Shown one piece after another: positions 2 to 14,859 of a stretch of 14,859 nt of DNA (positions within the stretch are counted from its first letter, which is position 1; every line of letters starts with the position of its first letter). The position numbers were made by a program, and so were the translations under genes. Origin of the DNA: Bacillota bacterium (GTDB lineage Bacteria; Bacillota; Clostridia; Tissierellales; Sporanaerobacteraceae); assembly GCA_029779375.1 (NCBI GenBank), contig JAKPAR010000260.1:1-14859 (forward strand), written 5' to 3'. The notes under the pieces are model-generated. The model was not told where the DNA came from. It made no database searches and saw nothing but the letters and a program-made list of their open reading frames with translations.

Positions 2-448
2 TTTTTCTCATATAAAAGGGCATGTGAAATGGGAGAGGATATATTTGGGGATTTACCTGATTTGCTCATATTTGGTCAAGGCAAAAAGATAATAAATAGC
101 TTTTCTTTTATAAAAGAGCTGACTTCTCCTTTGAAACTAGAAATACTGTATTTTGGGGATATTGATCCTGAAGGATTTATGATATATAGAAGTTTTAAAG
201 AAAGATATAAAGATTTAAATATAAATTTGCAAATTAAAGCCTATGTGCAACTTTTAAAAATTGGAAACAGAAAGTATCCTTGCGTTGGTCAAAGGAAAAA
301 TATCCGAGATTTAAATTTTGTACTAGATGAATTTCATGCTCATTTTTTGGATGAGTATGGGGAAATGCTAAAAAATTTATGGAATGAAGATAGAAGAATT
401 CCCCAAGAACTCATAAATTATGAATACATATTGAAAGGTGATAGATGA
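2..448 (+). CDS. jetD: Wadjet nuclease subunit JetD, C-terminal part (5' end outside window)
   Basis: This is the C-terminal part, about 148 residues, of a JetD-like (DUF2220) protein. The frame is open from the first bases of the window, so the ATG at 29 is an internal methionine and the gene begins upstream; family members are usually nearly 400 residues. The diagnostic stretch is YFGDIDPEGF, with aspartate codons at 158-160 and 164-166. This is the DxD metal-binding motif of a TOPRIM fold, as in topoisomerase VI subunit A. The tail contains the IPQE motif that I associate with JetD C-termini. In Wadjet systems JetD is the nuclease that cleaves circular plasmid DNA once the SMC complex has recognised it. 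The catalytic glutamate expected earlier in the TOPRIM fold is not visible and probably lies off the window. The gene is followed after one base by jetA. Family is fairly sure from motif and context; completeness cannot be judged. Confidence 0.85.
   Translation, partial: FFSYKRACEMGEDIFGDLPDLLIFGQGKKIINSFSFIKELTSPLKLEILYFGDIDPEGFMIYRSFKERYKDLNINLQIKAYVQLLKIGNRKYPCVGQRKNIRDLNFVLDEFHAHFLDEYGEMLKNLWNEDRRIPQELINYEYILKGDR
434..442 (+). promoter_or_regulatory. Ribosome binding site that sets the jetA start
   Basis: AAAGGTGAT lies inside the last codons of jetD and matches much of the anti-Shine-Dalgarno complement. It is well spaced (about 7-9 bases) for the ATG at 450. It overlaps the alternative GTG at 438, so that GTG is unlikely to be the start. 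Reading the ATG also gives the same one-base stop-to-start gap seen at the other two jet junctions. Confidence 0.6.
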
Positions 449-449
449 T

Positions 450-1925
450 ATGTCAATTGAAAAAGGGTTTTTTGATAGAATGAAAAAAATTGAAGTTATG
501 AGGATGTTGGGGACAGGCATGGACGTAGGAGAACTCAATGAGTTTTCTCATGAGATATGTTTTCTTTTACTACTCAATATATTTAAGAGAGAATTAACTG
601 AAAACCCAAATAGAAGTAGAACTGATATGATTCATATTGTAGAAGATATATTGAGGGATATGAAAATAGATACTTCAAAAGAAAATATTGAGAGAATTGT
701 AGATGGTACCTTGTGGTATAGGGATCCAAACAAACAAGAATATTTTAGTTCAACTATTTACAATGAACAAAGTGGAAGTAGAGAAGAATATGTATTTAGA
801 TATTTAAAAATAGATAGAGAACACAGTAATTGGGAAGATGGTGGCCCTACTGTGTATATGCTGTCTTCAGAATCTCAGGAAATGATTTTTATAACAAGAG
901 AGATACTGGAGGAGTTTGGATTTGATGTAGAGCAGTTCTATACCCTTCAACTCATAAAGACGGGAAATTTCACCAAGGCTCAAAGTAGCGTAGACAATCT
1001 TATAGCTAGAGTCAGAACTCTCATACGAAGGGAAAAAGAATATAAGCAAGATATGATAAGAGATCCTCAAACTATGTTTTTTGATAGAAAGAGAAATGCG
1101 AGAAAGACAGAAGAGATAAAAAGGCAATTTGAAGATGAACAAAAAGTATTTGATGAGATGTTTTCTTGGAAGGGCAGATATGATTCTCTTCCTGATGAAA
1201 AAAAGTATGAGGCTAAACTAATGTTTGAAAATTTAGAAACAGCTAGAGTGCTTCATGACAATTTAGCTAAAATAGTCATGGAAAACATAGCTTATGAGAT
1301 GGAAGTTAGAGTCAAATATCCAGAAAGTTTTTGGAAGAGTTCAAATGTAAGTTTTAAAAAAGATATTTGGAAAAATATTTTAGTGAAAAATGGACTTGAA
1401 AATTTTGAACAGTTGGAATATATTCTGTCGCCGCTTTTTTCTCCAAAGCTTGATTTTATATTTCCATTAGAATGGGCTTGGAATGAGCAAATGGTTAAAA
1501 ATTATTTTCAAGATGTGATAGAGGATGAAGAAGAAGAGGAAGAAGAAATTTATTTTACAGAAGAAACCGATTGGGAGCAAATAGTGGAATTGTGGAAATT
1601 TATATTTGATTTGCTTCTTCAAAGGGGAGAGTTTTCTATAGGGGAGTTAAATAAAATAAGTGATGAAGAAAAAGAAAAGTGGTTAAGTCAAAGAGAGAAT
1701 ATTGAACTTTTCATGATGTTTGTCATATCTGAAGTGGTTTTGGTTGAAAATTTTGAGGGAATAGATGAGAGATTGAAACTTTTTAGTTTGCTATGTGAAA
1801 GTGATGAAAAGTACAAAGCTCTCTATGGGAAGAGGATAAAGAGTGTTGTTGAAATAGATAAATCTCCACTTTTGTGGAGTGAAGTATATATATCACCTTA
1901 TACAATATATGTGGAGGAAAATTGA
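450..1925 (+). CDS. jetA: Wadjet subunit JetA (probable kleisin)
   Basis: A 491-residue soluble protein with no signal peptide or membrane segment. Its position between a JetD TOPRIM protein and a JetB/JetC pair identifies it as JetA. In studied Wadjet complexes JetA is the MukF-like kleisin that bridges the two SMC heads and binds JetB. Visible features are a mostly helical N-terminal half, a charged coiled-coil-like stretch at about residues 180-240, and a run of consecutive acidic residues near 355-365 that looks like a flexible linker. The C-terminal part (about 375-491) is again helical and could be the winged-helix end that binds an SMC head. The start at ATG 450 is preferred over an in-frame GTG at 438 because of the upstream AAAGGTGAT. 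The gene sits one base after the jetD stop and ends one base before jetB. Assignment rests more on context than on motifs. Type II or III Wadjet seems likelier than type I, but I cannot settle the subtype. Confidence 0.72.
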   Translation: MSIEKGFFDRMKKIEVMRMLGTGMDVGELNEFSHEICFLLLLNIFKRELTENPNRSRTDMIHIVEDILRDMKIDTSKENIERIVDGTLWYRDPNKQEYFSSTIYNEQSGSREEYVFRYLKIDREHSNWEDGGPTVYMLSSESQEMIFITREILEEFGFDVEQFYTLQLIKTGNFTKAQSSVDNLIARVRTLIRREKEYKQDMIRDPQTMFFDRKRNARKTEEIKRQFEDEQKVFDEMFSWKGRYDSLPDEKKYEAKLMFENLETARVLHDNLAKIVMENIAYEMEVRVKYPESFWKSSNVSFKKDIWKNILVKNGLENFEQLEYILSPLFSPKLDFIFPLEWAWNEQMVKNYFQDVIEDEEEEEEEIYFTEETDWEQIVELWKFIFDLLLQRGEFSIGELNKISDEEKEKWLSQRENIELFMMFVISEVVLVENFEGIDERLKLFSLLCESDEKYKALYGKRIKSVVEIDKSPLLWSEVYISPYTIYVEEN

Positions 1926-1926
1926 A

Positions 1927-2670
1927 ATGAGCTATTCAAATGAAAATATACAAAAGGCTTCTCAAGTTTTTTTCTATCTTTTGAAGAACAAAATAGTACC
2001 TATAAACGATACTTTTGGAAATGAGTATATTGAAAATCTTGAAGTAAGAGAAATTGTCAAGACCATGGCAGATGAGGCTGGACTTTTAGTTTTTCATATT
2101 GGGGGAAATGTGCATTTAGTTAGTAATCCTGACAATTCTATTTTTGCTACTTCTTATACTCATATGAAAGAAAAGTATAAGGGACTCAAAAAGAAAAAAT
2201 ATTTTTATCTTGCAAATATTATTATATGTATATTTTTATCAGAAGTTGACAAAGAAAAGTTTGTAAGAATTAGGGTAGAAGAAGAAGGTATTTCCTATTA
2301 TAAATTGGAGGATATCATCACCAAAACTATTGAATCTTGGAAAAAGCGAAATGATGAAGAGGAAAATTTTTCAAAAGATTGGGCTTTAGCTATTGATGAT
2401 ATATATACTTTGTGGACGTTGGAACTTTCTCATTCAAAGCCATCAAATAGTGAAGAACTTCCATTTAGCAAATCTATAGATACAAGACTTGGATTTATTC
2501 ATGAAGCTTTAAAACCTTTAAAAGATGAAGGACTTATTGTAGATATGCTAAAAGAATCTAGGATAATACCTAAAGATGAGCTTTATGAAAGGCTTAATTA
2601 TTTATATCACAGTCAAGAGAGGTATGAGGAAATCATGGGTCTTATAGAGGATACAAAGGAGGGTTTTTAA
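1927..2670 (+). CDS. jetB: Wadjet subunit JetB (KITE/MukE-like, DUF6063-like)
   Basis: A 247-residue soluble protein. Its N-terminus, with a helix followed by VFFYLLKNKIVP and later LLVFHIGGNVHLVSNPDN, resembles the DUF6063 family as I remember it, which accompanies non-type-I Wadjet ATPases. In the complex JetB is the KITE subunit, a tandem winged-helix protein that dimerises and binds the kleisin JetA. The start chosen is ATG 1927, preceded by GGAGG at 1913-1917 with nine bases of spacing. The frame is open further upstream to 1879, but that would overlap jetA by 47 bases without a good ribosome site. The gene begins one base after the jetA stop and ends one base before jetC, which suggests translational coupling and balanced subunit synthesis. 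No enzymatic motif is visible, consistent with a structural role. Confidence 0.78.
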   Translation: MSYSNENIQKASQVFFYLLKNKIVPINDTFGNEYIENLEVREIVKTMADEAGLLVFHIGGNVHLVSNPDNSIFATSYTHMKEKYKGLKKKKYFYLANIIICIFLSEVDKEKFVRIRVEEEGISYYKLEDIITKTIESWKKRNDEEENFSKDWALAIDDIYTLWTLELSHSKPSNSEELPFSKSIDTRLGFIHEALKPLKDEGLIVDMLKESRIIPKDELYERLNYLYHSQERYEEIMGLIEDTKEGF

Positions 2671-2671
2671 T

Positions 2672-5600
2672 ATGCCAAGAATTTCTAAAATTAGGCTTGT
2701 AGGCTGCAAATATGATGGATTTAAAAAGGAGCATGAAAATTCTATATTTGATTTGACCAAAGATGGAAGCCCAGATCACACTCTTTTTACTTTGAAGAAT
2801 GGTGGGGGAAAAGGTGTCATGATGCAGCTTATATTTCAAATAATGCTACCTGAAACTCGATGGGGGAAAAACAATGGAAACAAAATAAGCTCTATGTTTT
2901 ATGATCAAAAGGGCAGATTAAATCCCTACACATTCCATGTATTATTGGAATGGAAATTAGATACGAATAGAGAAAAATATCTTATTACGGGAATATGTAT
3001 GAAAGCCTATAGGAAAAATGTAGGGAAAAATGAAGATGATGATGAGAAGATAGGTTTAAACTATTTTCTATATACTTATGAGCATGAAAACAATGGATTT
3101 TATACTTTGGAAAATATACCTGTTTATGATAGAGACAATGAAAAGGCTGTAGAAATGGAAGTGTTTGAAAAGTTCATAGAAGACAATAGAAGGGATTTTG
3201 TGAAATATTCTCAAAGCAGTGCAAAAAGGCTTGATTCAAATTTTTATGAATATATGAAGAGATGGGGAATTTATAGATCTGAATGGGAAATTTTAAAGGT
3301 TATAAACAAAGTAGAAGGAGGAGTAGGGGATTATTTTCAAAAGGCTACAGACAACAAGGCGATTTTTGACAATCTCATACTTCCGGCCATATCTGAGAAT
3401 ATGAAGAATTATGAATATGAAGGTGATGGTCTTAAGGAAATGTTTAAGAGCAATCTTTATATAACGAGAAATTTGCCTATACTGCTGAAACGAGAAGGAG
3501 ATTTTAGGGAACTTTCTATAGCTATAAATCCTTTGATTAGGAATGCAGAGATAGGTTCAAAATTTTTAGACATAAAGGAAAGATGTATTGCTGATGGAAA
3601 TGATCTATATTTTATTTTGAAGGATGAAGAAAAAAATGCAGAAAAGAATATTGAAAAGTGGGAAAGTGAAATAATAAAAAGCAAAGAAAAACAAGAGGAA
3701 CTATTATTTCAAAGAGAAAATTTAGAATATGCTGAAGTCAATAGAGAAATAGAAAAAATTGAAGAAAAGAATAAAGTACTAGATGTAAGTATAGCTGAAG
3801 CAAAAGAAAAAATAGCTGATGAGAAGCATTTAGAGAAACTATATGAAATAAACAAGATATTGACTGAAGTAAATGAAATTGAGCTTTTACTTAAAGAAAA
3901 GACAGCTGAAAGGCAAAGGCTTATAGATAGTTTAGAATTAGATGATACCAAGAAGAGATTGGAAGAACTAGATTTAGAAATAAAAGATAAATGGGAAGGT
4001 TTGAAGGTTAAATGGGAAGATGTTTCAAATAAGTATTATGGCTATGACAATTATCTTAATAGAGAAATCGAAAATATATATACTCAAAAATCCAAGATGA
4101 AAGAAGTAGAAAAAGGGATAGAAATAGAAATAAATAAATTTTCTTTAAGAAAGGAAGAAAATCAAAGGGAATACGGAAGACTTTCAAATATATTCGATCC
4201 TTTCAGTATGAGTTTTCCAGAAAAACTTTTAGATGATATAAAAAGTAGATGTGAAAACGAAATGAAAAAAGTAGAAAGGCTTGAGATTGAAATTGAAGAA
4301 AAAAGAAAAAATAAAAATCAATTGGAAATTGAAAAAAATAAAATTGAGATAGAAAAGAAAAATGAAAAAGGAAAGATAAAAGAGCTTAAAAAAGAGTTTG
4401 ATATTGTAGAGAAGATAGAAATGGATTTAAAAAAGAGAATATGCTGGGAACTTGGTATTGATGATGTAAAAGAAGATATATCTTCTTCTTGGATTGATGA
4501 AAAACTATATAGTTTGGAATTAGTTTTGAGTGAAAAGGAAAATAAAATAGAAGAATTCAAGAAAAATCTTTGGGAAAGCAATATAGATAAATCTTTAAAT
4601 AAAGATAGGGAGTATTGGATACCCAACAAAGACATATTGGATTTAAAAGAGAGAATTATATCTGTTGGTATAAATGTTCAAACAGGTATGGAATTTTTAA
4701 ATGGAATGAAGAAAGAAGAAATACAAGAAATACTTAAAGCTAATCCTTCTTTCATATATGGATTGGTCATTGGAAATGAAGAAGATTGGAAGATAATAGA
4801 AAAGACTATTGATAGAGATTTTTTAGTACGCAATTTAGTTCCTATATACTTAAGGACAAATATGGGAAATCATGAAAAAGAGTTCAATACAGTAGACAAC
4901 AAGGGTTTTGATTTTATTTATAGTGAAAAATATATTGAATGGATTGACAATATAGACAGGGAATACAATAGCATAGAAGAAATCATAGATAGTTTTAAAG
5001 AAAGAGTTGGGGAAATTAACAATTTAATTGGGGATATAAAAAATTGGAAATTTGGCAAAAATTCTATTGAAATTCAAAGTGAAATTGATAATCATAAATC
5101 TCTAAGTGAAGAACTGGAAAGAAAAGAAGGTAAGTTAAAAGTTCAATTGTATGAGGAAGAAAAGTTAATAAGCACAATGACTAGTGAATTTAAGAATTCT
5201 AAAAATGAAGTGGAAAAATATAAAGACAATTTAGCTGAGTTGAAAAAGTATGTAGAAGCAAATGCAATTGTCTTGAAAGAAGAGAAAATTTACAATGAGA
5301 ATTTAGAAAAGCTTGAAGATGTAAGGCAAAAAATTAAGAGTGCAGAAAAAGACATGGAATTCAAAAAAAGTATGAGAGAATCCAACAATTTAGAATATGA
5401 AAAATGGAAAATTGAAATTGAAAATAAACTTGAAAGTATAAAAAAGGCAATACCTGAAGCTAAAGTTTGTTTCAATCAAATCAAAGATTTAGAAATAGCT
5501 TCTATGCCTATCTATGAAATATGGGAAGGAGATATATTTGTAGATTTAAGAGAGAGAAGTGCATTGGCAGAGGATATTGAAAAGAGAAATGGTGAAATAA

Positions 5601-7135
5601 AATTTATTCAAAAAGATATAGACCATTTCCTTGAGAAAATCGAAGTTCGTAGAAAAGATTTAGAAAAAATAGATGTGCTTTGGGAAAAATATGAGAGTTT
5701 GAAATTATCCTTAAATGAAATAGTCATTAGGCTTGAAGAAGTAAAGAAGAATTTAAAAGCTCATGAATATGAATACAATAGTTTAAAATCTGAAAAGGAT
5801 AGACTAGTTGGAAGTTTAGAAGAAAAGCAAAAAAACTTTATAAAGCTTGGAAAGAGAATACAGAAGAATTTTGGTAGGGCTCCTCAAATTTGGGCAGATT
5901 TAGACCTTTTAGAAAAGAGCATGTATATAGAAAAAGAATATAAAGAGAATAAGGAATATTTAGTTCAGGCAGAAAAAATATTGGAAGAGAGAAAAAAATA
6001 CAAAAATCAAATACGGGAATTCATTTTGCAGCTTGATGGATATAAGGAAATAGATTTTCACAAGGGAAAGATCAACAAGATATTAAAGGAAAAATTCATA
6101 AACAATTCACAGATAGAAGTAGAAGAGTGGATCAGAAGATACAAAAAGAGTGAGGATGATTTGAGTAGAGAAATTGAAAAAGGAGAGGAATATTTAAAGA
6201 CTTTTAAGGAAATTGTTGAAACTAAAGTTTATGATGAGGTTCTAAAGGCAAGGATACTAAATGAAATGCAGAAAGTAGGTATAAGCAAATTTAAAGCAAA
6301 TTTAGAGTCTTTTGGAAGCATGAAAAACTATTTTCAAATAGAACTAAATACCCTTTCAAGTGACAAAGAAAAGGCAGAACAGGCAAGAAATCAATGGACC
6401 ACAAGAGCTTCAAAGAGAGTTTTGAAGATAGTAGAATCATTGAGAGAAATGGTTTCGGGAATGGTATATATAAATGAAAATGAGTATTCATTTCCTCTTG
6501 TGAAGCTTAAAGGAGAAGAAAGGCTTCCCAAAGAGGAAGAAGATGTATTGTTTTTGTTGAAAGAATATTTTGTGGAAGCTATAGAAAAAGTGTTTAGCGA
6601 AAATGAAAATATTGAGGATATTGATGACAAAAAACTTGAGGAAATAATGAGCGATAAAGTCATATTTTCCAAAGCCCTTCAAGGAAGATATCCAATACTT
6701 ATGGTATACAAGATGACAGAGAAAAATGAATTCAAATATAAAAAGCCAAGGGACTACTACTATACTACCTGGGAAGCTATCAACAAAGGAGAAGGAGATA
6801 TGCCAGAAGGAAGTGGTGGCCAGACCCTTTCCATAAATACTTTTGTCATAATGATGCTTATGAACTACAAAAAAAGGCATATCGGAAATGAAAATCCTTG
6901 GACTGTTTTAGTTCTTGACAATCCATTTGGGAAGGCCTCGGCTAAACATATATTGGACCCAGTGTTTGAAATTGCCGATAAATTGAACTTTCAAATAATA
7001 GCTTTTGCTGCTCCGGAAATCATAAAAGTAGAGATAAGCGAGAGATTTCCTGTATTTTGGGAGCTTAGAATTGGTCATGATGAAAAAGAAGGACTTATCA
7101 CAGGAAAGGTAATGCATGGAGGAAGAAAAATGTAA
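2672..7135 (+). CDS. jetC: Wadjet SMC-family ATPase JetC (MukB-like)
   Basis: A 1487-residue SMC-like ATPase. The N-terminal head carries a Walker A-type loop, LKNGGGKGVM (residues 41-50, lysine 47). Two long Lys/Glu-rich coiled-coil arms (about 315-640 and 770-1290) flank a compact, less charged segment at about 645-765 that is the probable hinge. The C-terminal head holds the ABC signature GSGGQ (1380-1384) and Walker B VLVLDNPF, with aspartate 1416. In Wadjet complexes JetC dimers hydrolyse ATP to extrude DNA loops and let JetD cleave small closed circles. Two motif departures are notable: the Ser/Thr after the Walker A lysine is glycine 48, and the glutamate after the Walker B aspartate is asparagine 1417. 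I recall LDNPFG endings in related proteins, so these may be family traits and not damage. The ribosome site AAAGGAGGG at 2655-2663 supports ATG 2672. It is the last gene of the operon, and a hairpin follows. Confidence 0.9.
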   Translation: MPRISKIRLVGCKYDGFKKEHENSIFDLTKDGSPDHTLFTLKNGGGKGVMMQLIFQIMLPETRWGKNNGNKISSMFYDQKGRLNPYTFHVLLEWKLDTNREKYLITGICMKAYRKNVGKNEDDDEKIGLNYFLYTYEHENNGFYTLENIPVYDRDNEKAVEMEVFEKFIEDNRRDFVKYSQSSAKRLDSNFYEYMKRWGIYRSEWEILKVINKVEGGVGDYFQKATDNKAIFDNLILPAISENMKNYEYEGDGLKEMFKSNLYITRNLPILLKREGDFRELSIAINPLIRNAEIGSKFLDIKERCIADGNDLYFILKDEEKNAEKNIEKWESEIIKSKEKQEELLFQRENLEYAEVNREIEKIEEKNKVLDVSIAEAKEKIADEKHLEKLYEINKILTEVNEIELLLKEKTAERQRLIDSLELDDTKKRLEELDLEIKDKWEGLKVKWEDVSNKYYGYDNYLNREIENIYTQKSKMKEVEKGIEIEINKFSLRKEENQREYGRLSNIFDPFSMSFPEKLLDDIKSRCENEMKKVERLEIEIEEKRKNKNQLEIEKNKIEIEKKNEKGKIKELKKEFDIVEKIEMDLKKRICWELGIDDVKEDISSSWIDEKLYSLELVLSEKENKIEEFKKNLWESNIDKSLNKDREYWIPNKDILDLKERIISVGINVQTGMEFLNGMKKEEIQEILKANPSFIYGLVIGNEEDWKIIEKTIDRDFLVRNLVPIYLRTNMGNHEKEFNTVDNKGFDFIYSEKYIEWIDNIDREYNSIEEIIDSFKERVGEINNLIGDIKNWKFGKNSIEIQSEIDNHKSLSEELERKEGKLKVQLYEEEKLISTMTSEFKNSKNEVEKYKDNLAELKKYVEANAIVLKEEKIYNENLEKLEDVRQKIKSAEKDMEFKKSMRESNNLEYEKWKIEIENKLESIKKAIPEAKVCFNQIKDLEIASMPIYEIWEGDIFVDLRERSALAEDIEKRNGEIKFIQKDIDHFLEKIEVRRKDLEKIDVLWEKYESLKLSLNEIVIRLEEVKKNLKAHEYEYNSLKSEKDRLVGSLEEKQKNFIKLGKRIQKNFGRAPQIWADLDLLEKSMYIEKEYKENKEYLVQAEKILEERKKYKNQIREFILQLDGYKEIDFHKGKINKILKEKFINNSQIEVEEWIRRYKKSEDDLSREIEKGEEYLKTFKEIVETKVYDEVLKARILNEMQKVGISKFKANLESFGSMKNYFQIELNTLSSDKEKAEQARNQWTTRASKRVLKIVESLREMVSGMVYINENEYSFPLVKLKGEERLPKEEEDVLFLLKEYFVEAIEKVFSENENIEDIDDKKLEEIMSDKVIFSKALQGRYPILMVYKMTEKNEFKYKKPRDYYYTTWEAINKGEGDMPEGSGGQTLSINTFVIMMLMNYKKRHIGNENPWTVLVLDNPFGKASAKHILDPVFEIADKLNFQIIAFAAPEIIKVEISERFPVFWELRIGHDEKEGLITGKVMHGGRKM

Positions 7136-7223: not shown

Positions 7224-7418
7224 TTAAAAGCTATAACTCCAAAATAATATTCCAATCAATACTAGAAGAAATGGACTAAAAACCAAGAGGGCTGAAAGAA
7301 ATAAAGCCAGCATATCATTTTTTTCCAATTTAATATGTTCTTCTTCTATATTAAATTCTAGTTTGCTTTTTTCTTTGAGCCAATCTATAGTAGCATTTAA
7401 TTTTTTTTGAAAAATCAT
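7224..7418 (-). CDS. Small single-pass membrane protein coupled to oppF
   Basis: A 64-residue protein with a charged amphipathic first half (about residues 1-36, rich in Lys and Glu) and one hydrophobic helix at about 37-61 ending close to the C-terminus. The arrangement suggests a cytoplasmic N-terminus and a C-terminal membrane anchor. Its ATG overlaps the oppF stop as ATGA (7415-7418), a typical translational coupling junction. The only ribosome-site-like sequence, AAAGG inside the oppF end, is somewhat distant. I do not recognise the family. By position it is the last gene of the peptide importer operon, and a strong minus-strand terminator follows. It may be an accessory or stabilising peptide of the transporter, but that is inferred from context only. 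The overlap and the clear two-part organisation argue that it is a real gene. Confidence 0.65.
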   Translation of the reverse strand: MIFQKKLNATIDWLKEKSKLEFNIEEEHIKLEKNDMLALFLSALLVFSPFLLVLIGILFWSYSF

Positions 7419-9004
7419 ACTGCATCAAGACCTTTCTGCTTTTTCTTTTCTATATTGAGTTTATGATGGCAAGCTACAAAATGTCCAGGACGAGCCTCTT
7501 CCCATTCTGGTACAACCATTTTACATATATCAGTAGCATATTTACAACGAGTATGAAATTTACATCCAGAAGGTGGTTTAATAGGGCTTGGAACATCACC
7601 TTCAAGAATTTGAATTTCTCTATCGTCATCAACATCAGTAGTAGGTATTGCCAAAAGAAGTGCTTCAGTATATGGATGCATAGGGTGTTCATAAAGTTCT
7701 TCAGTTTCTGCCAGTTCTATGATATTGCCAACATACATAACTCCCACTCTATCACTTATATATTTAATGACACTTAAATCATGAGAAATAAATAAATAAG
7801 TCAAGTTTTCCTGTTTCTTTAAATCTAGCAACAGATTCAATATTTGAGATTGAATAGATACATCCAGTGCAGATACAGCTTCATCACACACAATAAATTT
7901 TGGATTTAATGCTATAGAACGAGCTATTCCTATACGTTGCCTTTGCCCTCCAGAAAATTGATGAGGATAGCGATGAACAAAATAAGGGGCTAATCCACAA
8001 TTGTCCATAGTTTTTAAAATATAATTCTGTACATTTTTGTCCTTTTTTGCAAATATCTTATGAGAATACAAGCCTTCAGATATTATCTGTCCTACAGTAA
8101 GCCTTGGATTCAAAGAAGAATAAGGGTCTTGAAATATAAGTTGTAAGTCCTTTCTAAGAAGTCTCATTTCTTCTTCGGTTAATTTAGCAAGGTTAATACC
8201 TTTATCTCTATAGGCTTCGTGCTTTTCAAAATCTGGATGATCTCTATATTTATCTAACATTTTTTGAATATCTGTGTTGATACTATTTAAAGCTTTTTCA
8301 ATTTTAGCAAGTTCATTTTCCATATTTTTAATTGTAGCTAAATACTTGTTAGTTTCATTTTCAATATCTTTTTGAGATTTGCCTTGCTCTTTCAACAAAG
8401 ATTTAGCTGCTTCCATTTCTATTCTTGTTTCATTTATTTTATTTTTAAGTTTTCGTGTTTCTATAGCATAATTGTGCTGTTTCATTAAAATATCCGATAC
8501 AGGATTTAAATCTTCAGCTACCATAAATCCTCCAATCAATTGAGCTAAATCAAGATATAAAAGTCTAGCCTCTTTTTCAGCTAAACGAAGTTTTTCTAAA
8601 GTACGATATTTTTCAGGACCTTCTTCTAAACTATCATATATTTTTTGAATATCCTTTTGCTTTTTTTCTAATTCTCTCAACTTATGACGTTGTGAAGACA
8701 AATTCTTCAAGGTATCTAATACATATTTTGGTGCAAAATCATCAATATCCCTACCATAATATATAGTTCGACCATCAGTTTGGTCGTACAATTGCAAAAG
8801 AGTTCTGCCCAATGTAGATTTTCCGCATCCGCTTTCTCCTACTAGGCCCAAGGTTTCACCTTCATAGATATCTAGAGTAATGTCTTCATTAGCTTTTACA
8901 TACAATTGCTCAGAATTAAATACAGATTTTTTCTTTAGAGGAAAATATTTTTTCAAATTTTCCACACGAATTAATACTTTTTTATCTTTCTTATTTTCAA
9001 GCAT
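7415..9004 (-). CDS. oppF: Oligopeptide ABC importer ATPase OppF with a coiled-coil insertion
   Basis: A 529-residue cytoplasmic ATPase that powers the OppBC permease. ABC motifs are complete: Walker A GESGCGKST (56-64), Q-loop IFQDPYSSLNPR (Q292), signature FSGGQRQR (350-357), Walker B IVCDEAVSALD (D374, E375) and H-loop ISHD (H408). The C-terminal oligopeptide-transporter extension has cysteines 481, 487, 494 and 512, in the CX5CX6C...C arrangement that binds an iron-sulfur cluster in some Opp/Dpp ATPases. Ordinary OppF is about 310-350 residues. The extra length is a block at about 95-275 between Walker A and the Q-loop, mostly charged helix and likely coiled coil. The frame is unbroken and every catalytic motif is present, so this is not a faulty fusion. 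The start has AGAGGTGAG just upstream and overlaps the oppD end by 8 bases. It probably pairs with OppD as the two nucleotide-binding subunits; the substrate could be peptides in general. Confidence 0.92.
   Translation of the reverse strand: MLENKKDKKVLIRVENLKKYFPLKKKSVFNSEQLYVKANEDITLDIYEGETLGLVGESGCGKSTLGRTLLQLYDQTDGRTIYYGRDIDDFAPKYVLDTLKNLSSQRHKLRELEKKQKDIQKIYDSLEEGPEKYRTLEKLRLAEKEARLLYLDLAQLIGGFMVAEDLNPVSDILMKQHNYAIETRKLKNKINETRIEMEAAKSLLKEQGKSQKDIENETNKYLATIKNMENELAKIEKALNSINTDIQKMLDKYRDHPDFEKHEAYRDKGINLAKLTEEEMRLLRKDLQLIFQDPYSSLNPRLTVGQIISEGLYSHKIFAKKDKNVQNYILKTMDNCGLAPYFVHRYPHQFSGGQRQRIGIARSIALNPKFIVCDEAVSALDVSIQSQILNLLLDLKKQENLTYLFISHDLSVIKYISDRVGVMYVGNIIELAETEELYEHPMHPYTEALLLAIPTTDVDDDREIQILEGDVPSPIKPPSGCKFHTRCKYATDICKMVVPEWEEARPGHFVACHHKLNIEKKKQKGLDAV
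8180..8722 (-). other. Coiled-coil insertion inside OppF
   Basis: This segment encodes OppF residues of about 95-275. It consists of a first charged helical stretch (about 97-150), a short less polar stretch (about 151-180, including LIGGFMVAEDLNP), and a second longer helical stretch (about 181-255) leading into the LTEEEMRLLRKDLQLIFQ lead-up to the Q-loop. The pattern suggests two antiparallel coiled-coil arms protruding from the nucleotide-binding domain into the cytoplasm. Boundaries are estimated by comparison with the neighbouring OppD, which lacks the block. Confidence 0.8.
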
Positions 9005-9989
9005 TAGCTCTCACCTCTTTCTGTGGATAAAAGCAACGGATTAGATGTTCTTTTTCTACTTCTATCAAATCAGGTTCTTCTTTTTCACATCTGACCGTAG
9101 CATATTTGCATCTAGGAGCAAATTTACAACCTACAGGCAATTTTAAAGGATGAGGGACTGCTCCTGGAATTGCATCTAAACGAACTCCCGGAGGAGTATC
9201 TAATCTAGGAATTGATGTCAACAATCCTTCAGTATATGGATGAGAGTAAGAGGTATTCTTTCCAAATATAGTTCTTACAGGTGCGTTTTCCACTACTTGA
9301 CCACAGTACATTACAGCCACATCATCAGCCATTTTATTTATAACACCTAGATCATGAGTAATAAATAAAATAGAAGTATCAATTTTAGATTTCAATTCAT
9401 TCATCAATTTCAAAATTTGTGCTTGAATAGTTACATCCAGTGCAGTTGTAGGTTCATCTGCAATCAGAAGTTTTGGAACACATGCAAGAGCCATAGCTAT
9501 CATAACTCTTTGTCTCATGCCCCCTGAAAGTTGATGAGGATACTGTTTAGCAACATCTTCTGGATTTGGTATTTTAACCATATGAAGCATTTCAACTACT
9601 TTTTTAGCTGCTTCTTGTTTATTCATTGCTTGGTGAATCATAAGAGGTTCGGATATTTGTTTTTCAACAGTAAATACAGGATTTAAAGATGTCATAGGTT
9701 CTTGAAAAATAACAGAGATATCATTTCCCCTTATTCCTGTCATTTCATCCATAGGAACGTCTACTAGATTTTTTCCATCAAACCAAATTTCACCACTAGC
9801 TATATATCCATTTCCATCTAAAAGCTTTATAATGCTCATTGCTGAAACACTTTTTCCACAACCACTTTCACCTACAAGGCCAAGGGTCTTGCCAGCTTCA
9901 ATACTATAAGAAACATCGTTTACTGCCTTTACGATGCCTTTTTTTGTTGTAAAATAAGTATGCAAATTCTTAACTTCTAACAAAGCCAT
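8997..9989 (-). CDS. oppD: Oligopeptide ABC importer ATPase OppD
   Basis: A 330-residue ATPase of normal length for the Opp/DppD family. Motifs in order are Walker A GESGCGKSV (40-48), Q-loop IFQEPMTSLNP (Q96), signature LSGGMRQR (154-161), Walker B LLIADEPTTALD (D178, E179) and H-loop ITHD (H212). The C-terminal extension carries cysteines 288, 294, 301 and 319, the same CX5CX6C...C spacing as in OppF, which matches the iron-sulfur cluster site known from some DppD/OppD structures. It works at the inner membrane face with OppF to drive peptide uptake through OppB/OppC. The start ATG at 9989 is preceded by GGGGGA, 12 bases after the oppC stop, and its end overlaps oppF by 8 bases. Nothing is missing or inserted. 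Whether the substrate is di-, tri- or longer peptides cannot be told from this gene. Confidence 0.95.
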   Translation of the reverse strand: MALLEVKNLHTYFTTKKGIVKAVNDVSYSIEAGKTLGLVGESGCGKSVSAMSIIKLLDGNGYIASGEIWFDGKNLVDVPMDEMTGIRGNDISVIFQEPMTSLNPVFTVEKQISEPLMIHQAMNKQEAAKKVVEMLHMVKIPNPEDVAKQYPHQLSGGMRQRVMIAMALACVPKLLIADEPTTALDVTIQAQILKLMNELKSKIDTSILFITHDLGVINKMADDVAVMYCGQVVENAPVRTIFGKNTSYSHPYTEGLLTSIPRLDTPPGVRLDAIPGAVPHPLKLPVGCKFAPRCKYATVRCEKEEPDLIEVEKEHLIRCFYPQKEVRANA

Positions 9990-10001: not shown

Positions 10002-11840
10002 CTAACGTTCTTGAGATTTTGGATCAATTGCATCTCGTAAGCCATCGCCTATTGAGTTAATAGAAACTACACTTATACTCAATACAATAGAAGCAAAAAC
10101 CCATCTCCACCAATAATTTTGAATAACTATACTATTATTTGCTCCATACAACATATTGCCCCAGGTTGGTAGAGGAGCTTGCACGCCAAATCCTAAATAA
10201 GATAAAGTGGCTTCAGTCAACATACTACTTGCAAAAGATAATGTAGCCGAGACAATAATTACTGATATCACATTTGGTAAAATGTGTTTAAATATGATAT
10301 TTTTTCGTTTAACACCAAGAGATTTTGCAGCAATTACATATTCTTGTTCACGAACTGATAGAACTTGTGCACGAACCAATCTTTGAAGTCCTGGCCATGA
10401 CAGTAGTCCTAAAATAATCATAATCAGCACAACTCTTTCTCTTGATGACATAGCATTTCCAATTAGAGCTGATAAAATCATTGCAAAAGGTAAAAATGGC
10501 AAAGAAGCTACCATCTCTGATATTCTCTGTAGAACCATATCAACTTTTCCTCCAAAGAAACCAGATATGCCACCTATAATTACACCAATAATTGTGGAAA
10601 TGATTACAGCAACAGCACCTATTGTTATAGACATACGTCCACCATTTAATAGTCTTGTAAATATATCTCTACCTAATTCATCACTTCCAAAGGGATATCC
10701 TTTTAATCCCCAAGTTAGAACTTTACCTTTTGTAGTGACTGCATAATTTTGATAAAATCCAGTATAAACTTTGGATATTTTTGCTTCAGAAATTTTCTTG
10801 GGAATAGTTGATTGCTTGTAGCAATTTGAACCCCAAGAGATAACTTCACCATTTTCAGTCACTGCAGTATAGTGATAACTTCCTCCTTGTATAGATATTA
10901 TTTTATCTTTTACTTCTGGTATTTTGTTTTCATCTCGTGAAGTAATATTTCCCCATATAAATACCTTTCCTTCATCATTTAGACTAGCTACAGTAGAAGC
11001 AGTAGCAGCTATATCCACTACATTTCCCATATTTTTAGGTATATTGGTATAAGAATTTATCTGAGTTCCAAGATGAACTACTTGTCCATCAAAGGTCAGT
11101 CCAATCAATGTATCAGAAGTAGTTATTACTTTTTTCAATTGACCTTGATAAGGGTGAAATTCGTTGAAATCATTGTTTGTAGAGTTGCCTAAATAATATA
11201 AATAGCCATCTTCAGTGAGGATACATGAATTTTGGTATCCAGCAGCAATATCTACAATTTTTTTATCACGGATTAATTCAACTGGAATAGATGTTTGTTT
11301 TTGACGATTATTTCCCCATGCAAATAGCTTTCCCTCATCATTTAAAGCTAGTGCATGATCAAATCCAGCAGCGATTTTCACGACTTTTCCCATATTGGCT
11401 GGAATATCCTTTAAATCAACATTTTTGTTTATCTTTGTTTTTCCCCAAATATATACCTTGCCATCTGTAGACACACCTATACTAAATGTAGGACCAATAG
11501 CAATTTGTTCAACTTTTCCATCTAAATCTTGTGGAATTTTCATAAGGTCAAGCCCGGGGGCTACATTTTGCTGAGTAGTTTCGGAAAAAGACAAATCAAT
11601 AGGTACTACTAATGGTCCAATCAAAACTATGACAAATATCACTAAAAATACAGTTAGAGCTGTCATAGCAACTTTATCGCTTTTAAATGAAGAAAGAACA
11701 GATTGCCAAGGACTTTGAATATCTTCCTCTTCAAGCATTGTCATTTTTTCTTTTCCGCCAAAGAGATTTATAAACATAAGATGACAAAAAGACTTTTTCT
11801 TCTTATCTTTCTTTTTATTACTAATTTGTTTTGTATCCAT
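10002..11840 (-). CDS. oppC: Oligopeptide ABC importer permease OppC with inserted seven-repeat RCC1 propeller
   Basis: A 612-residue permease, about twice the usual 300. The N-terminal 55 residues are cytoplasmic, first Lys-rich and then acidic. Membrane helix 1 is at about 59-80. Next, where a normal OppC has a short outer loop before GTDELGRD, comes a block of about 270 residues with seven RCC1-type repeats (about 110-378). The normal permease resumes at YPFGSDELGRDIF (382-394), with further helices at about 404-428, 445-462, 468-484, 520-540 and 577-597. The EAA coupling loop, which docks on the ATPases, is at 500-522 (EYVIAAKSLG ... ILP). Both ends of the permease are intact around the insert in one uninterrupted frame, so this is a domain insertion and not two fused genes. 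AGGAGGAG upstream supports the start at 11840. OppC forms the channel with OppB. The insert should face outward and could contact the binding protein, the peptide or the cell wall; its function is unknown. Confidence 0.95.
   Translation of the reverse strand: MDTKQISNKKKDKKKKSFCHLMFINLFGGKEKMTMLEEEDIQSPWQSVLSSFKSDKVAMTALTVFLVIFVIVLIGPLVVPIDLSFSETTQQNVAPGLDLMKIPQDLDGKVEQIAIGPTFSIGVSTDGKVYIWGKTKINKNVDLKDIPANMGKVVKIAAGFDHALALNDEGKLFAWGNNRQKQTSIPVELIRDKKIVDIAAGYQNSCILTEDGYLYYLGNSTNNDFNEFHPYQGQLKKVITTSDTLIGLTFDGQVVHLGTQINSYTNIPKNMGNVVDIAATASTVASLNDEGKVFIWGNITSRDENKIPEVKDKIISIQGGSYHYTAVTENGEVISWGSNCYKQSTIPKKISEAKISKVYTGFYQNYAVTTKGKVLTWGLKGYPFGSDELGRDIFTRLLNGGRMSITIGAVAVIISTIIGVIIGGISGFFGGKVDMVLQRISEMVASLPFLPFAMILSALIGNAMSSRERVVLIMIILGLLSWPGLQRLVRAQVLSVREQEYVIAAKSLGVKRKNIIFKHILPNVISVIIVSATLSFASSMLTEATLSYLGFGVQAPLPTWGNMLYGANNSIVIQNYWWRWVFASIVLSISVVSINSIGDGLRDAIDPKSQER
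10707..11513 (-). other. Seven RCC1-type repeats within OppC (predicted beta-propeller)
   Basis: OppC residues 110-378 contain seven copies of the pattern V-x-I-A-A-G-x-x-x-x-x-A-L-x-x-D/E-G-K-V-x-x-W-G. They begin at about residues 110, 153, 195, 235, 274, 314 and 355, a spacing of about 40. Linkers often contain IPxxM or IPxxI. Copies 2 and 6 are closest to the consensus (IAAGFDHALALNDEGKLFAW; IQGGSYHYTAVTENGEVISW). Copy 4 is the most divergent, with no aromatic before the final glycine. Seven is the blade number of RCC1 itself, so a closed propeller is likely. The copies differ from each other at many positions, so the array is not a recent tandem duplication. Confidence 0.9.
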
Positions 11841-11858: not shown

Positions 11859-12845
11859 CTATTGATCTATTCTGACACGGGGATCTACAAATCCATAACT
11901 TATATCAGTGACTAAATTGCTTAAAAGAGCTATTATGATATAGAACAGTTGTATTGCCAGTGCTACATTGTAGTCTTGATTGTTTAATGCATTGATATAG
12001 AAGTTTCCCATGCCATGTAAATTGAACATTCTTTCAATAACTAATGAACCCGAAAATACACTCATAATCCATGCTATAATTAAGGTAATAACAGGAAGAA
12101 GTGCATTCTTCCATGCATGAGAGTAAATAACCACTTTTTCTTTTAAGCCTTTTGCTCTAGCTGTCTTTATATAATCCATACTTAAAGCATCTATCATTGC
12201 TGCTCTTACGTATCTTGTGACGCCAGCCAAAGAAGTTACAACTAATATGATTATAGGCAGTGACAAGTGATACATAATATCCAGAAAACGTTCAAATTCT
12301 GTTCCCTTAAAATTAGGAGTAGTCATTCCGCTAACTGGAAACCATTGCAGTTTTACTGCAAAAATGAAAATAAACAACAATCCTGTAATGAATATAGGAA
12401 CACTGTAGCCAACTACAGTTAAAACTTGTATAGTTTTATCAAATCCAGAATGTTTCTTTACAGCAGTACGAATTCCCAAAGGAATGGTTATGAGAAGGAC
12501 TAAAGCTATAACAAATATATTTATAAATACGGTATTTTTTAAAGGTACTGTTACCACATCTTTAACTGGTTGCTTATAAACAGAGGACATACCAAAATCA
12601 CCTTTTAAAATACCTTTCATCCATTTTCCATATCTTATGATAGGAGGGTCATCTAAACCAAGTTGTTTTCTTGCTTGTGCATATCTAAATTGGTATTCTT
12701 CTGGCGTTAAAGTATCTTTTATGGGTTCTAGCTGAGCTCTAGCTGGGTCACCAGGGATTAAATTGTATAAGAAAAATAGAACAAGAGACATGACAAGAAA
12801 CACAAATATCATATATAAAATTCTTTTACAAATATATTTAACCAT
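11859..12845 (-). CDS. oppB: Oligopeptide ABC importer permease OppB
   Basis: A 328-residue inner-membrane permease of normal family length. Helix 1 (about 8-29) is followed by the hallmark IPGDPA (30-35) and the outer-loop motif GDFGMS (82-87). Further helices lie at about 105-127, 138-166, 190-213, 250-270 and 293-315. The EAA coupling loop is at 224-251 (DYIKTARAKGL ... NALLP), and the C-terminus ends in DPRVRI as is usual for OppB/DppB. It pairs with OppC to form the translocation pore and docks on the OppD/OppF ATPases through the EAA loop. The start ATG at 12845 has AAGGAAGG seven to eight bases upstream. Its stop lies 18 bases before the oppC start, next to the oppC ribosome site. Unlike OppC, it carries no extra domain. 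Confidence 0.95.
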   Translation of the reverse strand: MVKYICKRILYMIFVFLVMSLVLFFLYNLIPGDPARAQLEPIKDTLTPEEYQFRYAQARKQLGLDDPPIIRYGKWMKGILKGDFGMSSVYKQPVKDVVTVPLKNTVFINIFVIALVLLITIPLGIRTAVKKHSGFDKTIQVLTVVGYSVPIFITGLLFIFIFAVKLQWFPVSGMTTPNFKGTEFERFLDIMYHLSLPIIILVVTSLAGVTRYVRAAMIDALSMDYIKTARAKGLKEKVVIYSHAWKNALLPVITLIIAWIMSVFSGSLVIERMFNLHGMGNFYINALNNQDYNVALAIQLFYIIIALLSNLVTDISYGFVDPRVRIDQ

Positions 12846-12992: not shown

Positions 12993-14859
12993 CTATTCTG
13001 TTACATATGAGTAAAGAATTGCGTCAGGTATTTTGATAAGGGAGTTCATATTGTAATTTTGAAGCTTATTGGTATAGAAGTCATGATATATATTTGAATA
13101 TAGTGGTATATCTGGCAACAATTCATTCCACCTAACAATAAAGTCCACAAATTTTTTCTTAAATCCATCTTTATCATCTGGATCTGTTAGAACCATTTCT
13201 TTTGCATATTTTTCTAGATCTTTGTCTATAATATGGTTGCTGTTTAATCCTTGTTTGATTAGATCTGGATCTGTTGTATAAGTTACGGAAAGGTCATATC
13301 TTGGTGTAAAACCAGTTCCTAAATTAAACATATGATAAGTAGGTACTCCATATTTAGCATCTTTAGATCCATCACGATATAAGTAATTCAACAACTCTCC
13401 AAAGGTCATAACAGTTTGATTGATTTTCATACCTGCACTAGCCACATCAGGATTTTCTTGCAATTTTATAACTAATAAGTCAGATACTTCATTTTGTTCA
13501 GTAGAAGCCCATTCTATAACAAGTGGCATCAATGTACCATCTTCTAGTTTTTTATAGCGGATACCTTCTTTATATTCATTTCCATTTTTATCATATATCC
13601 ATCCACTTTCTTCCAAAAGCGCAATTGCTTTTTCAGGGCTGTATGGATATTGATCTAATTTACTATTTAATTCAGCTTTTGTTTCTTGATAGAACCACAT
13701 AGCTTCACCATAAGGACCATTAACTACTGTACCAAATCCTCCAGTGAAAGCTTTAGCAAAATCATTTCTATCTATAAGATGGGCAATTGCTTTACGAACA
13801 TTGACATCTTCAGTAGGACCGTGGTCGCATATCAATTCCAATTTACCATATCCAGCACGAGGATATTCAGTAAAGCTATATCCACCTTTTTCCACAAGGT
13901 CAAGGCCTGCGTTGATTTCATCACCACTAGCCATACCAGACAACAAGTCAACTCCTCCTGTAGCTAATTCATCCATAGCTGTTTCGTTAGTTACTTTCTT
14001 ATATATAACTGTCTTAATCAATGGTTTTCTACCTTCATAGTTTCCAAGGAATTTGTCGTTTACTTCAAGAACTGCAGTTTTAGATGCTTCATCATAGCTT
14101 ACAACTTTATATGGTCCAGTTGAAGGATAGCTTTCAAATCTTGCTTTATTGATTCTTTCTTCAAAATTGTCTTTAGTGAAATTGTCAGAAAAATAACAGC
14201 CATTTCCATCGTCTTTAATTTCTACTGTGTCATCAGTCCAGAAAGACAATTTTAGAGGCGAAGCACTTACAAGAGTTAGTTCGAAAAAGTAAGGAATATT
14301 TTCTGCATCAATAGTAAACGCAAAAGTTTTTTCGTCAATTAAATTAACACCAATAAATTCTTTTGCATTTCCTGTTGAATATTCTTTCCAACCTTTGAGA
14401 TATTGACCACTAGTATTGTCTCCACCCATTTCACCAACTACAGGTGATGACCAGAACATATAGTCTGAAACATAATCAAGTGCTGTAATAGGGCTTCCAT
14501 CGTCATAAGTAAGACCATCTTTGATAGTAAAGGCATAGGTTTTAGAACCATCGTCGTTTTCTGTAACTTCATGTTTTTCTACTACGGTGTCATTGATTAA
14601 ATATTTGCCATCAAAAGTCATATCAACAGTGCCATATCCAGTAATAAAGTTATAAATATCATAGTCTGCTGCATTGTTTTGGAAATAAGGTTCCCAGTCG
14701 CCAGTCAATTCTGTCGTATTTCCAATAGTTATTTGCCCCGTAGGTTCAGTAGGTTCAGCATTTGTGTTTTCTTCTACTGGTTCTTCTTCAGTTTCTTCTT
14801 CACCAACAGTAGGATTTTCCTTTTTGCCACAAGCTGTAGTAAAGACAGTCAGTAGAAGT
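12993..14859 (-). CDS. oppA: Oligopeptide-binding lipoprotein OppA (5' end outside window)
   Basis: An extracytoplasmic solute-binding protein of family 5 (SBP_bac_5), with about 621 residues visible. The frame stays open to the window edge, so the TTG at 14706-14708 is not the start. The edge shows the end of a lipoprotein signal peptide: a hydrophobic run into FTTAC, with the lipobox cysteine at 14829-14831. An acidic, Pro/Thr-rich linker of about 30 residues follows (GEEETEEEPVEEN and onward), tethering the domain to the membrane. The body has family-typical stretches such as YAFTIKDGLTYDDGSPITA and later NVRKAIAHLIDRNDFAKAF. The mature protein is about 612 residues, rather long for the family. 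It should capture peptides outside the cell and deliver them to OppB/OppC. The genes for its transporter follow after a 147-base gap. Substrate preference cannot be read from the sequence; other family-5 ligands, such as nickel chelates, are possible but less likely beside OppBCDF. Confidence 0.92.
   Translation of the reverse strand, partial: LLLTVFTTACGKKENPTVGEEETEEEPVEENTNAEPTEPTGQITIGNTTELTGDWEPYFQNNAADYDIYNFITGYGTVDMTFDGKYLINDTVVEKHEVTENDDGSKTYAFTIKDGLTYDDGSPITALDYVSDYMFWSSPVVGEMGGDNTSGQYLKGWKEYSTGNAKEFIGVNLIDEKTFAFTIDAENIPYFFELTLVSASPLKLSFWTDDTVEIKDDGNGCYFSDNFTKDNFEERINKARFESYPSTGPYKVVSYDEASKTAVLEVNDKFLGNYEGRKPLIKTVIYKKVTNETAMDELATGGVDLLSGMASGDEINAGLDLVEKGGYSFTEYPRAGYGKLELICDHGPTEDVNVRKAIAHLIDRNDFAKAFTGGFGTVVNGPYGEAMWFYQETKAELNSKLDQYPYSPEKAIALLEESGWIYDKNGNEYKEGIRYKKLEDGTLMPLVIEWASTEQNEVSDLLVIKLQENPDVASAGMKINQTVMTFGELLNYLYRDGSKDAKYGVPTYHMFNLGTGFTPRYDLSVTYTTDPDLIKQGLNSNHIIDKDLEKYAKEMVLTDPDDKDGFKKKFVDFIVRWNELLPDIPLYSNIYHDFYTNKLQNYNMNSLIKIPDAILYSYVTE

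Follow-up and report, generated by a model that had tools for sequence, protein, structure and literature searches.

Peptide importers of the Opp/Dpp type, such as OppBCDF (8z21) and DppABCDF (8z1y) of E. coli and OppABCD and DppABCD of M. tuberculosis, are assembled from the same five kinds of subunit as the system described here, which is encoded in a window of 14,859 nucleotides forming one entire contig (G000:C142) of a 402-contig, 1.8-Mb assembly. Relative to these importers, the window OppC carries an additional propeller of ~275 residues between TM1 and TM2, while its OppF carries an additional helical insert of ~160 residues and reads DEA in place of DEP. The maltose importer likewise has one permease subunit, MalF, with an additional domain (P2) in a loop outside the cytoplasm; P2 has another fold and lies in another loop than the OppC propeller. 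P2 interacts with the binding protein according to the titles of two studies (Daus 2009; Grote 2009) cited in PMC3328499. In E. coli, DppC pairs with DppF and DppB with DppD, the TM1-TM2 region of DppC is periplasmic, and a "scoop" of DppB enters the cleft of DppA, which is the basis of the known OppA-OppB contact (PMC12136057, excerpted text). Like the propeller, the scoop belongs to the TM1-TM2 region of a permease; however, it is a stretch of only ~30 residues of the B subunit, made up of a loop and two short helices, whereas here the C subunit carries an entire domain and the corresponding OppB region is retained.

By both structure and sequence, the best match of the propeller is to BLIP-II/RCC1-like propellers, with which it shares seven blades and RCC1_2 repeats. 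BLIP-II is secreted and inhibits beta-lactamase (PMC9218822, excerpted text), whereas the OppC propeller is part of a membrane importer. The preliminary description of this DNA knew of no characterised Opp/Dpp permease with such a domain, and the open-licence PMC literature agrees: no publication was found there on RCC1 together with OppC or an oligopeptide permease, and a wider search of the same papers gave no title on a propeller-OppC architecture among the matches listed. Combining RCC1 with ABC transporter permease retrieved, in the same literature and as far as the available text goes, the RegA regulon of Rhodobacter only; the available part of PMC9218822, which deals with the RCC1/BLIP-II propeller group, lacks the words transporter and permease, and that of PMC10191383 offered nothing usable on pneumococcal AmiC as a possible analogue. 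The propeller Opp importer is a real and widespread variant that is apparently undescribed.

Propeller within the TM1-TM2 loop of OppC

The five genes oppA-oppB-oppC-oppD-oppF were assigned on the minus strand from open reading frames and Pfam/NCBIfam profile matches (Table 1), and related loci keep this arrangement of binding protein, OppB, OppD and OppF around OppC as far as their contigs extend. At L042 and L040, at least two OppA-like genes or gene fragments lie upstream of the propeller operon. Three further OppC paralogues of the window's own genome are all without a propeller. An operon on the opposite strand of the window (2-7135, +) matches Wadjet type III, with JetD3 (start truncated by the contig end), JetA3, JetB3 and JetC3.

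Table 1. Positions in the window of the opp genes and of the structural elements of OppC and OppF.
Feature	Position	Strand	Basis
oppA, peptide-binding protein (SBP_bac_5)	12993..14858	-	Pfam; start truncated by contig end
oppB, permease, TM1-TM2 (scoop) region present	11859..12845	-	profile matches
oppC, 612-aa permease, RCC1/BLIP-II-type propeller inside TM1-TM2 loop	10002..11840	-	Pfam, AlphaFold, superposition
OppC TM1 (residues 56-78)	11607..11675	-	AlphaFold helix 56-78, OppC_N; N-terminus inside by homology
TM1-to-propeller linker (79-100), conserved TQxN..PG	11541..11606	-	AlphaFold, alignment
N-terminal segment (101-108), taken as completing blade 7	11517..11540	-	repeat register, suggesting closure
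Blade 1, strands A-C (110-133)	11442..11513	-	AlphaFold
Blade 2, strands A-C (153-176)	11313..11384	-	AlphaFold
Blade 3, strands A-C (195-218)	11187..11258	-	AlphaFold
Blade 4, strands A-C (235-258; strand C modelled 254-256 only)	11067..11138	-	AlphaFold
Blade 5, strands A-C (274-297)	10950..11021	-	AlphaFold
Blade 6, strands A-C (314-337)	10830..10901	-	AlphaFold
Blade 7, strands A-C (355-378), then directly LKGYPFGSDELGRD	10707..10778	-	AlphaFold, sequence
Junction and permease core (379-612)	10005..10706	-	BPD_transp_1; superposition on E. coli OppC
oppD, ATPase, usual length (330 aa)	8997..9989	-	profile matches
oppF, 529-aa ATPase partner of OppC, with insertion	7415..9004	-	Pfam, AlphaFold, superposition
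Helical insertion in OppF (93-251), between Walker A and Q-loop	8252..8728	-	AlphaFold, sequence

In OppC, Pfam recognises OppC_N at residues 43-95 (42.4 bits; cut-off 23.9), RCC1 repeats up to ~379 (RCC1_2, 133.1 bits against 22; RCC1, 33.3 against 21.7) and BPD_transp_1 at 419-608 (108.2 bits; cut-off 26.4), with WD40_RLD (PF25390) narrowly below its curated cut-off (147 against 150 bits). The top-scoring family, the NCBIfam equivalog Opp4C (NF045476), reached 306.9 bits against a cut-off of 350, so that this OppC is not classed among its members. All 278 residues of E. coli OppC (8z21_B) were aligned with the OppC model by superposition, and AlphaFold predicts the inserted repeats as a closed seven-bladed fold, in line with the seven RCC1-type blades, the intact permease on either side and the outer-loop position between TM1 and TM2 that had been read from the sequence. 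The solved structures nearest by sequence are BLIP-II for the propeller and E. coli OppC for the permease, and none of the 49 distinct sequences matched in the PDB sequence search covers both. The (F)GTDxxGRD motif preceding TM2 lies at residue 56-99 in 14 of 17 ordinary OppCs drawn from genomes and at 366-466 in 81 of 85 propeller OppCs. L043 (5940-8030) encodes a propeller OppC of 696 aa with a long, low-complexity acidic insertion following blade 2.

The superposition on E. coli OppC, together with the periplasmic TM1-TM2 region of DppC (PMC12136057, excerpted text), places the propeller on the extracytoplasmic side. Guanine-nucleotide exchange on Ran, as carried out by RCC1 proper, is not expected of a domain outside the bacterial cell. 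Since both linkers exit on the AB/CD side of blade 7 in the strand order, the AB/CD face should look at the membrane, as judged from topology rather than coordinates.

Conservation was assessed on 76 different propeller sequences (effective number 44), with blade number in relatives judged by alignment occupancy; mean occupancy of the strand positions was 1.00. Loop variability is lower on the presumed membrane face, with a mean entropy of 2.03 bits at non-Gly/Pro positions as against 2.35 bits on the far face (permutation p 0.012). Residues conserved at ≥0.7 in a single blade only number 12 of 75 on the presumed membrane face and 3 of 64 on the far face (Fisher p 0.028), in a sorting made by hand after the entropy result had been seen and with repeat-consensus and junction residues excluded. 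Part of this face difference is ordinary for an RCC1 repeat, as AB/CD turns are also kept for structural reasons.

Helical insertion in OppF and spread of the family

The length of the window OppF, 529 aa, is due to an insertion of ~160-170 aa separating Walker A from the Q-loop. AlphaFold models this insert as five helices (93-100, 102-125, 130-162, 167-206 and 211-251; ten-residue pLDDT means 85-97, whole-chain mean 80.4), while superposition of the remainder on chain D of 8z21 (E. coli OppBCDF), which we take to be OppF, covers 319 of its 328 residues. Weak matches to coiled-coil proteins were all that a PDB sequence search with the insert returned. In a length comparison over 15 genomes (11 with the propeller and four chosen without it; E≤1e-75), the 11 OppFs of propeller operons had frames of 392-556 aa, versus 322-392 aa and a core-only alignment for 27 other OppFs; the two shortest of the former (392 and 412 aa) retain the insert and are truncated behind it, the 392-aa one by a contig end. 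The spacing from Walker A to the Q-loop is 196-251 residues in 64 of the 66 measurable among 72 propeller loci, which are not mutually independent, and 225-257 in all 15 measurable of 19 further loci. Of 19 ordinary OppFs, the motif search located both sites in seven, all with a distance of 50, and the other 12 have their Q-loop at residue 92-126. The residues after Walker B read DEA in 61/61 OppFs of complete propeller operons, as opposed to 18 DEP and one DEA in the 19 ordinary ones.

The two exceptions in Walker A to Q-loop spacing are sister MAGs, L083 and L092, whose propeller operons encode an OppF without insert (Walker A to Q-loop 56 and 58) that reads DEP after Walker B. In a tree of OppF cores, in which 12 of the 19 ordinary rows were skipped as they gave no motif match, a single clade (100/99) unites the 27 insert-bearing rows with these two short ones, and an ordinary OppF of the window's own genome is next to it. 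On these sequences, the propeller and the OppF insertion mark the same clade, and the short OppF looks like a later loss. When searched alone, the insert was found in 15 of 391 Clostridia genomes, 14 of them propeller genomes and the fifteenth (G102) with the insert on a 3.7-kb contig where no OppC is visible; two propeller genomes unmatched by this search (G117 and G351) nevertheless encode OppFs of 556 aa.

The preliminary description, which suggested searching OppC homologues for RCC1 insertions by lineage, had missed a widespread operon family and the OppF insertion that nearly always accompanies the propeller. The protein search gave 1,769 matches at E≤1e-3 among 7,999 scored candidates, and the best 120 of the 1,769 were of 606-628 aa with both Pfam sets present. 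The propeller query (E≤1e-15) matched 19 of 391 Clostridia-class genomes, within OppC in 16 of them, spread across nine families, and within very large RCC1 proteins in the other three. The order of G387 has the propeller OppC in 22 of 245 genomes, all 19 newly fetched loci having an opp operon, and the order of G338 has a propeller match in five of 30. Two peptide patterns, applied non-exhaustively to one genome per species, yielded 76 loci, in 72 of which (many truncated by contig ends) a propeller OppC adjoins opp genes and in four not. Named isolates are Clostridium sp. Cult1, Fenollaria massiliensis, F. timonensis, Anaerosporobacter faecicola and Merdimmobilis hominis; the carriers are anaerobes, many from gut or digester. 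Where database names exist for clade members, they are those of ordinary peptide permeases only. A Sphaerochaeta MAG (L109) and a partial protein labelled Sphaerochaetaceae (P0206) also have the propeller OppC, for which transfer and mis-binning are both possible. Five stretches of viral contigs matched a pattern, none of which encodes a relative, and viral structural matches were mostly proteins named as RCC1 repeats.

In a permease-domain tree of 85 propeller rows and 23 without, near-copies included, all 85 fall in a single clade (support 100/99), just outside of which lie a paralogue from the window's own genome (L002) and two Solobacterium paralogues. This topology points to one origin of the propeller OppC and a gain retained across many families. 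Very large RCC1-repeat proteins of Clostridia genomes (L024, L026, L027 and L116-L118), with frames of ~1,650 to >4,000 aa, some truncated by locus ends, are a possible source of the propeller. Six propeller-less rows are nested in the clade, so that five label changes are needed. Four of these (P0191, P0213, P0232 and P0238) were rejected as propeller losses, since they are mosaics that go, within the gene, from 16-50% to ~90% identity with their closest propeller OppC and are perhaps assembly chimeras; P0139 (with near-copies P0141 and P0149) and P0183 have even identity past the junction and may be true losses. Such independent losses would suit a propeller that is a passive or decaying passenger with no specific function, but fully occupied strand positions, conserved blade-specific loop residues and a single gain kept across many families make this reading very improbable.

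Coupled divergence and proposed docking of OppA

The importer is an oppABCDF system from a separate clade, and by sequence and confident models its OppC-OppF half carries additions on the outer as well as the inner side of the membrane. Within it, we favour the propeller as a docking platform holding OppA at the mouth of the translocator, to which we assign a probability of about 0.45 on the strength of coupled divergence and geometry. For complete operons (61, reduced by thinning to sets of 50 and 49, and later 70, reduced to 57), we compared how far each part diverges from one operon to another, the selection requiring all five genes and an OppF of >460 aa and hence leaving out L083 and L092; the partial rank correlation is what remains for each pair after removing all other parts. 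Over the 57 operons, the highest value belongs to OppA-OppB (0.55), followed by OppA-propeller (0.44; 0.27 to 0.57), OppD-OppF core (0.44; a known pair), OppF core-insert (0.35), and OppC core-OppF core and OppA-OppC core (0.24 each). The strong pairs include known contacts (PMC12136057, excerpted text) or covalent neighbours. Much lower values were obtained for the propeller with OppD (0.19), OppF core (0.18), OppF insert (0.14), its own permease core (0.08) and OppB (0.07).

With squared terms, the partials of the propeller were 0.36 for OppA (Mantel p 0.001), 0.25 for OppF core (0.001), 0.20 for OppB (0.002), 0.16 for OppF insert (0.005) and -0.01 for OppC core (0.60). Removing any 12 neighbouring operons left OppA-propeller at 0.33-0.56. 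Speed of evolution alone does not explain this coupling, since the OppF insert, the fastest-evolving part, does not track OppA (0.05). Among far pairs, OppA stands out as the correlate of the propeller (0.49). For close pairs, the propeller values are 0.41 with the OppF insert, 0.32 with OppB and 0.30 with OppA, and in the 10 operons nearest the window the propeller follows OppF core (0.53) above OppA (0.24). The method errs both ways, as OppB-OppC core (0.17) is a known contact ranked low and OppB-OppD (0.04) one that is missed, while the propeller is coupled to cytoplasmic parts beyond its reach. The MalF P2 analogy of the preliminary description gains indirectly from a propeller divergence that tracks OppA more closely than its own permease domain, and the contact itself stays putative. 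The results speak neither for nor against the other roles put forward there, gating of peptide delivery and binding of the cell wall or a partner protein.

Alternatively, the propeller may bind a third partner (cell wall, S-layer, a secreted peptidase, another cell or a host protein) and so place the importer where peptides arise. The structural neighbours of the OppC model, which include BLIP-II with TEM-1 beta-lactamase, HERC2 RCC1-like domains and UVR8 with RUP2 or COP1, illustrate that RCC1-like propellers are general protein binders, and the more variable face, presumed to look outwards, is as expected with varied partners. This explanation is nevertheless somewhat unlikely, given that propeller divergence tracks OppA best and, more weakly, that no unmatched neighbour of one length recurs family-wide when flanking genes are compared by eye. 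A position at the pore mouth and the solved complex of an HERC2 RCC1-like domain with an acidic peptide motif (7q41) would also suit a propeller that captures free peptides, as an additional receptor or filter, for transfer to OppA or the pore; we regard this as quite unlikely, because the OppA gene is retained in propeller operons and the propeller is therefore no substitute for OppA.

A decidedly unlikely proposal is that the propeller and the OppF helical domain act together as a gate on ATP hydrolysis, sensing the states on the two sides of the membrane. It draws on the pairing of DppC with DppF (PMC12136057, excerpted text), on two insertions that mark the same clade and occur together in nearly all measured operons, on the uniform DEA of complete operons and on the close-pair correlation between propeller and insert, but the sister operons with a propeller and no insert and the low propeller-insert value over all 57 operons speak against it. 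A related version, in which OppA, perhaps in its loaded form alone, is recognised by the propeller and the OppF domain relays or answers a cytosolic signal, so that import would be licensed from both sides, we hold to be unlikely; we know of no Opp system under such control.

In the docking model preferred here, one face of the outer propeller would grip OppA at the mouth of the translocator from the OppC side, and the OppB scoop would act on OppA from the opposite side. Working like MalF P2, such docking would raise local OppA occupancy, select the cognate OppA and fix the pairing of OppA with its permease, and the OppF helical domain might, speculatively, tune ATPase coupling of the OppC-OppF half. 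The nested propeller-less OppCs P0139 and P0183, if they are losses, count against docking. Two further lines of argument were dropped. OppA residues 341-480 as the docking site (r 0.46, Mantel p 0.0005) fell to ~0.02 without the clade around L204-L210. The OppAs of L065, L073, L097 and L105, from presumed monoderms, lack a lipobox and appear to have a type I signal peptide, which might suggest that the propeller must hold an unlipidated OppA. However, the other OppAs identified in G392, G393 and G396 look alike and are equally without a lipobox.

What makes the system more interesting than first noted is the enlargement of one half-transporter at the outer and the inner side of the membrane. 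Recruitment of binding proteins usually relies on a weak contact that is not easily told apart from transport proper. Should the propeller dock OppA, this recruitment would reside on one separable domain that can be cut or swapped, and relatives without the propeller or without the OppF insert (the latter at L083 and L092) would serve as natural controls and test cases. The propeller marks an importer clade in gut and digester anaerobes.
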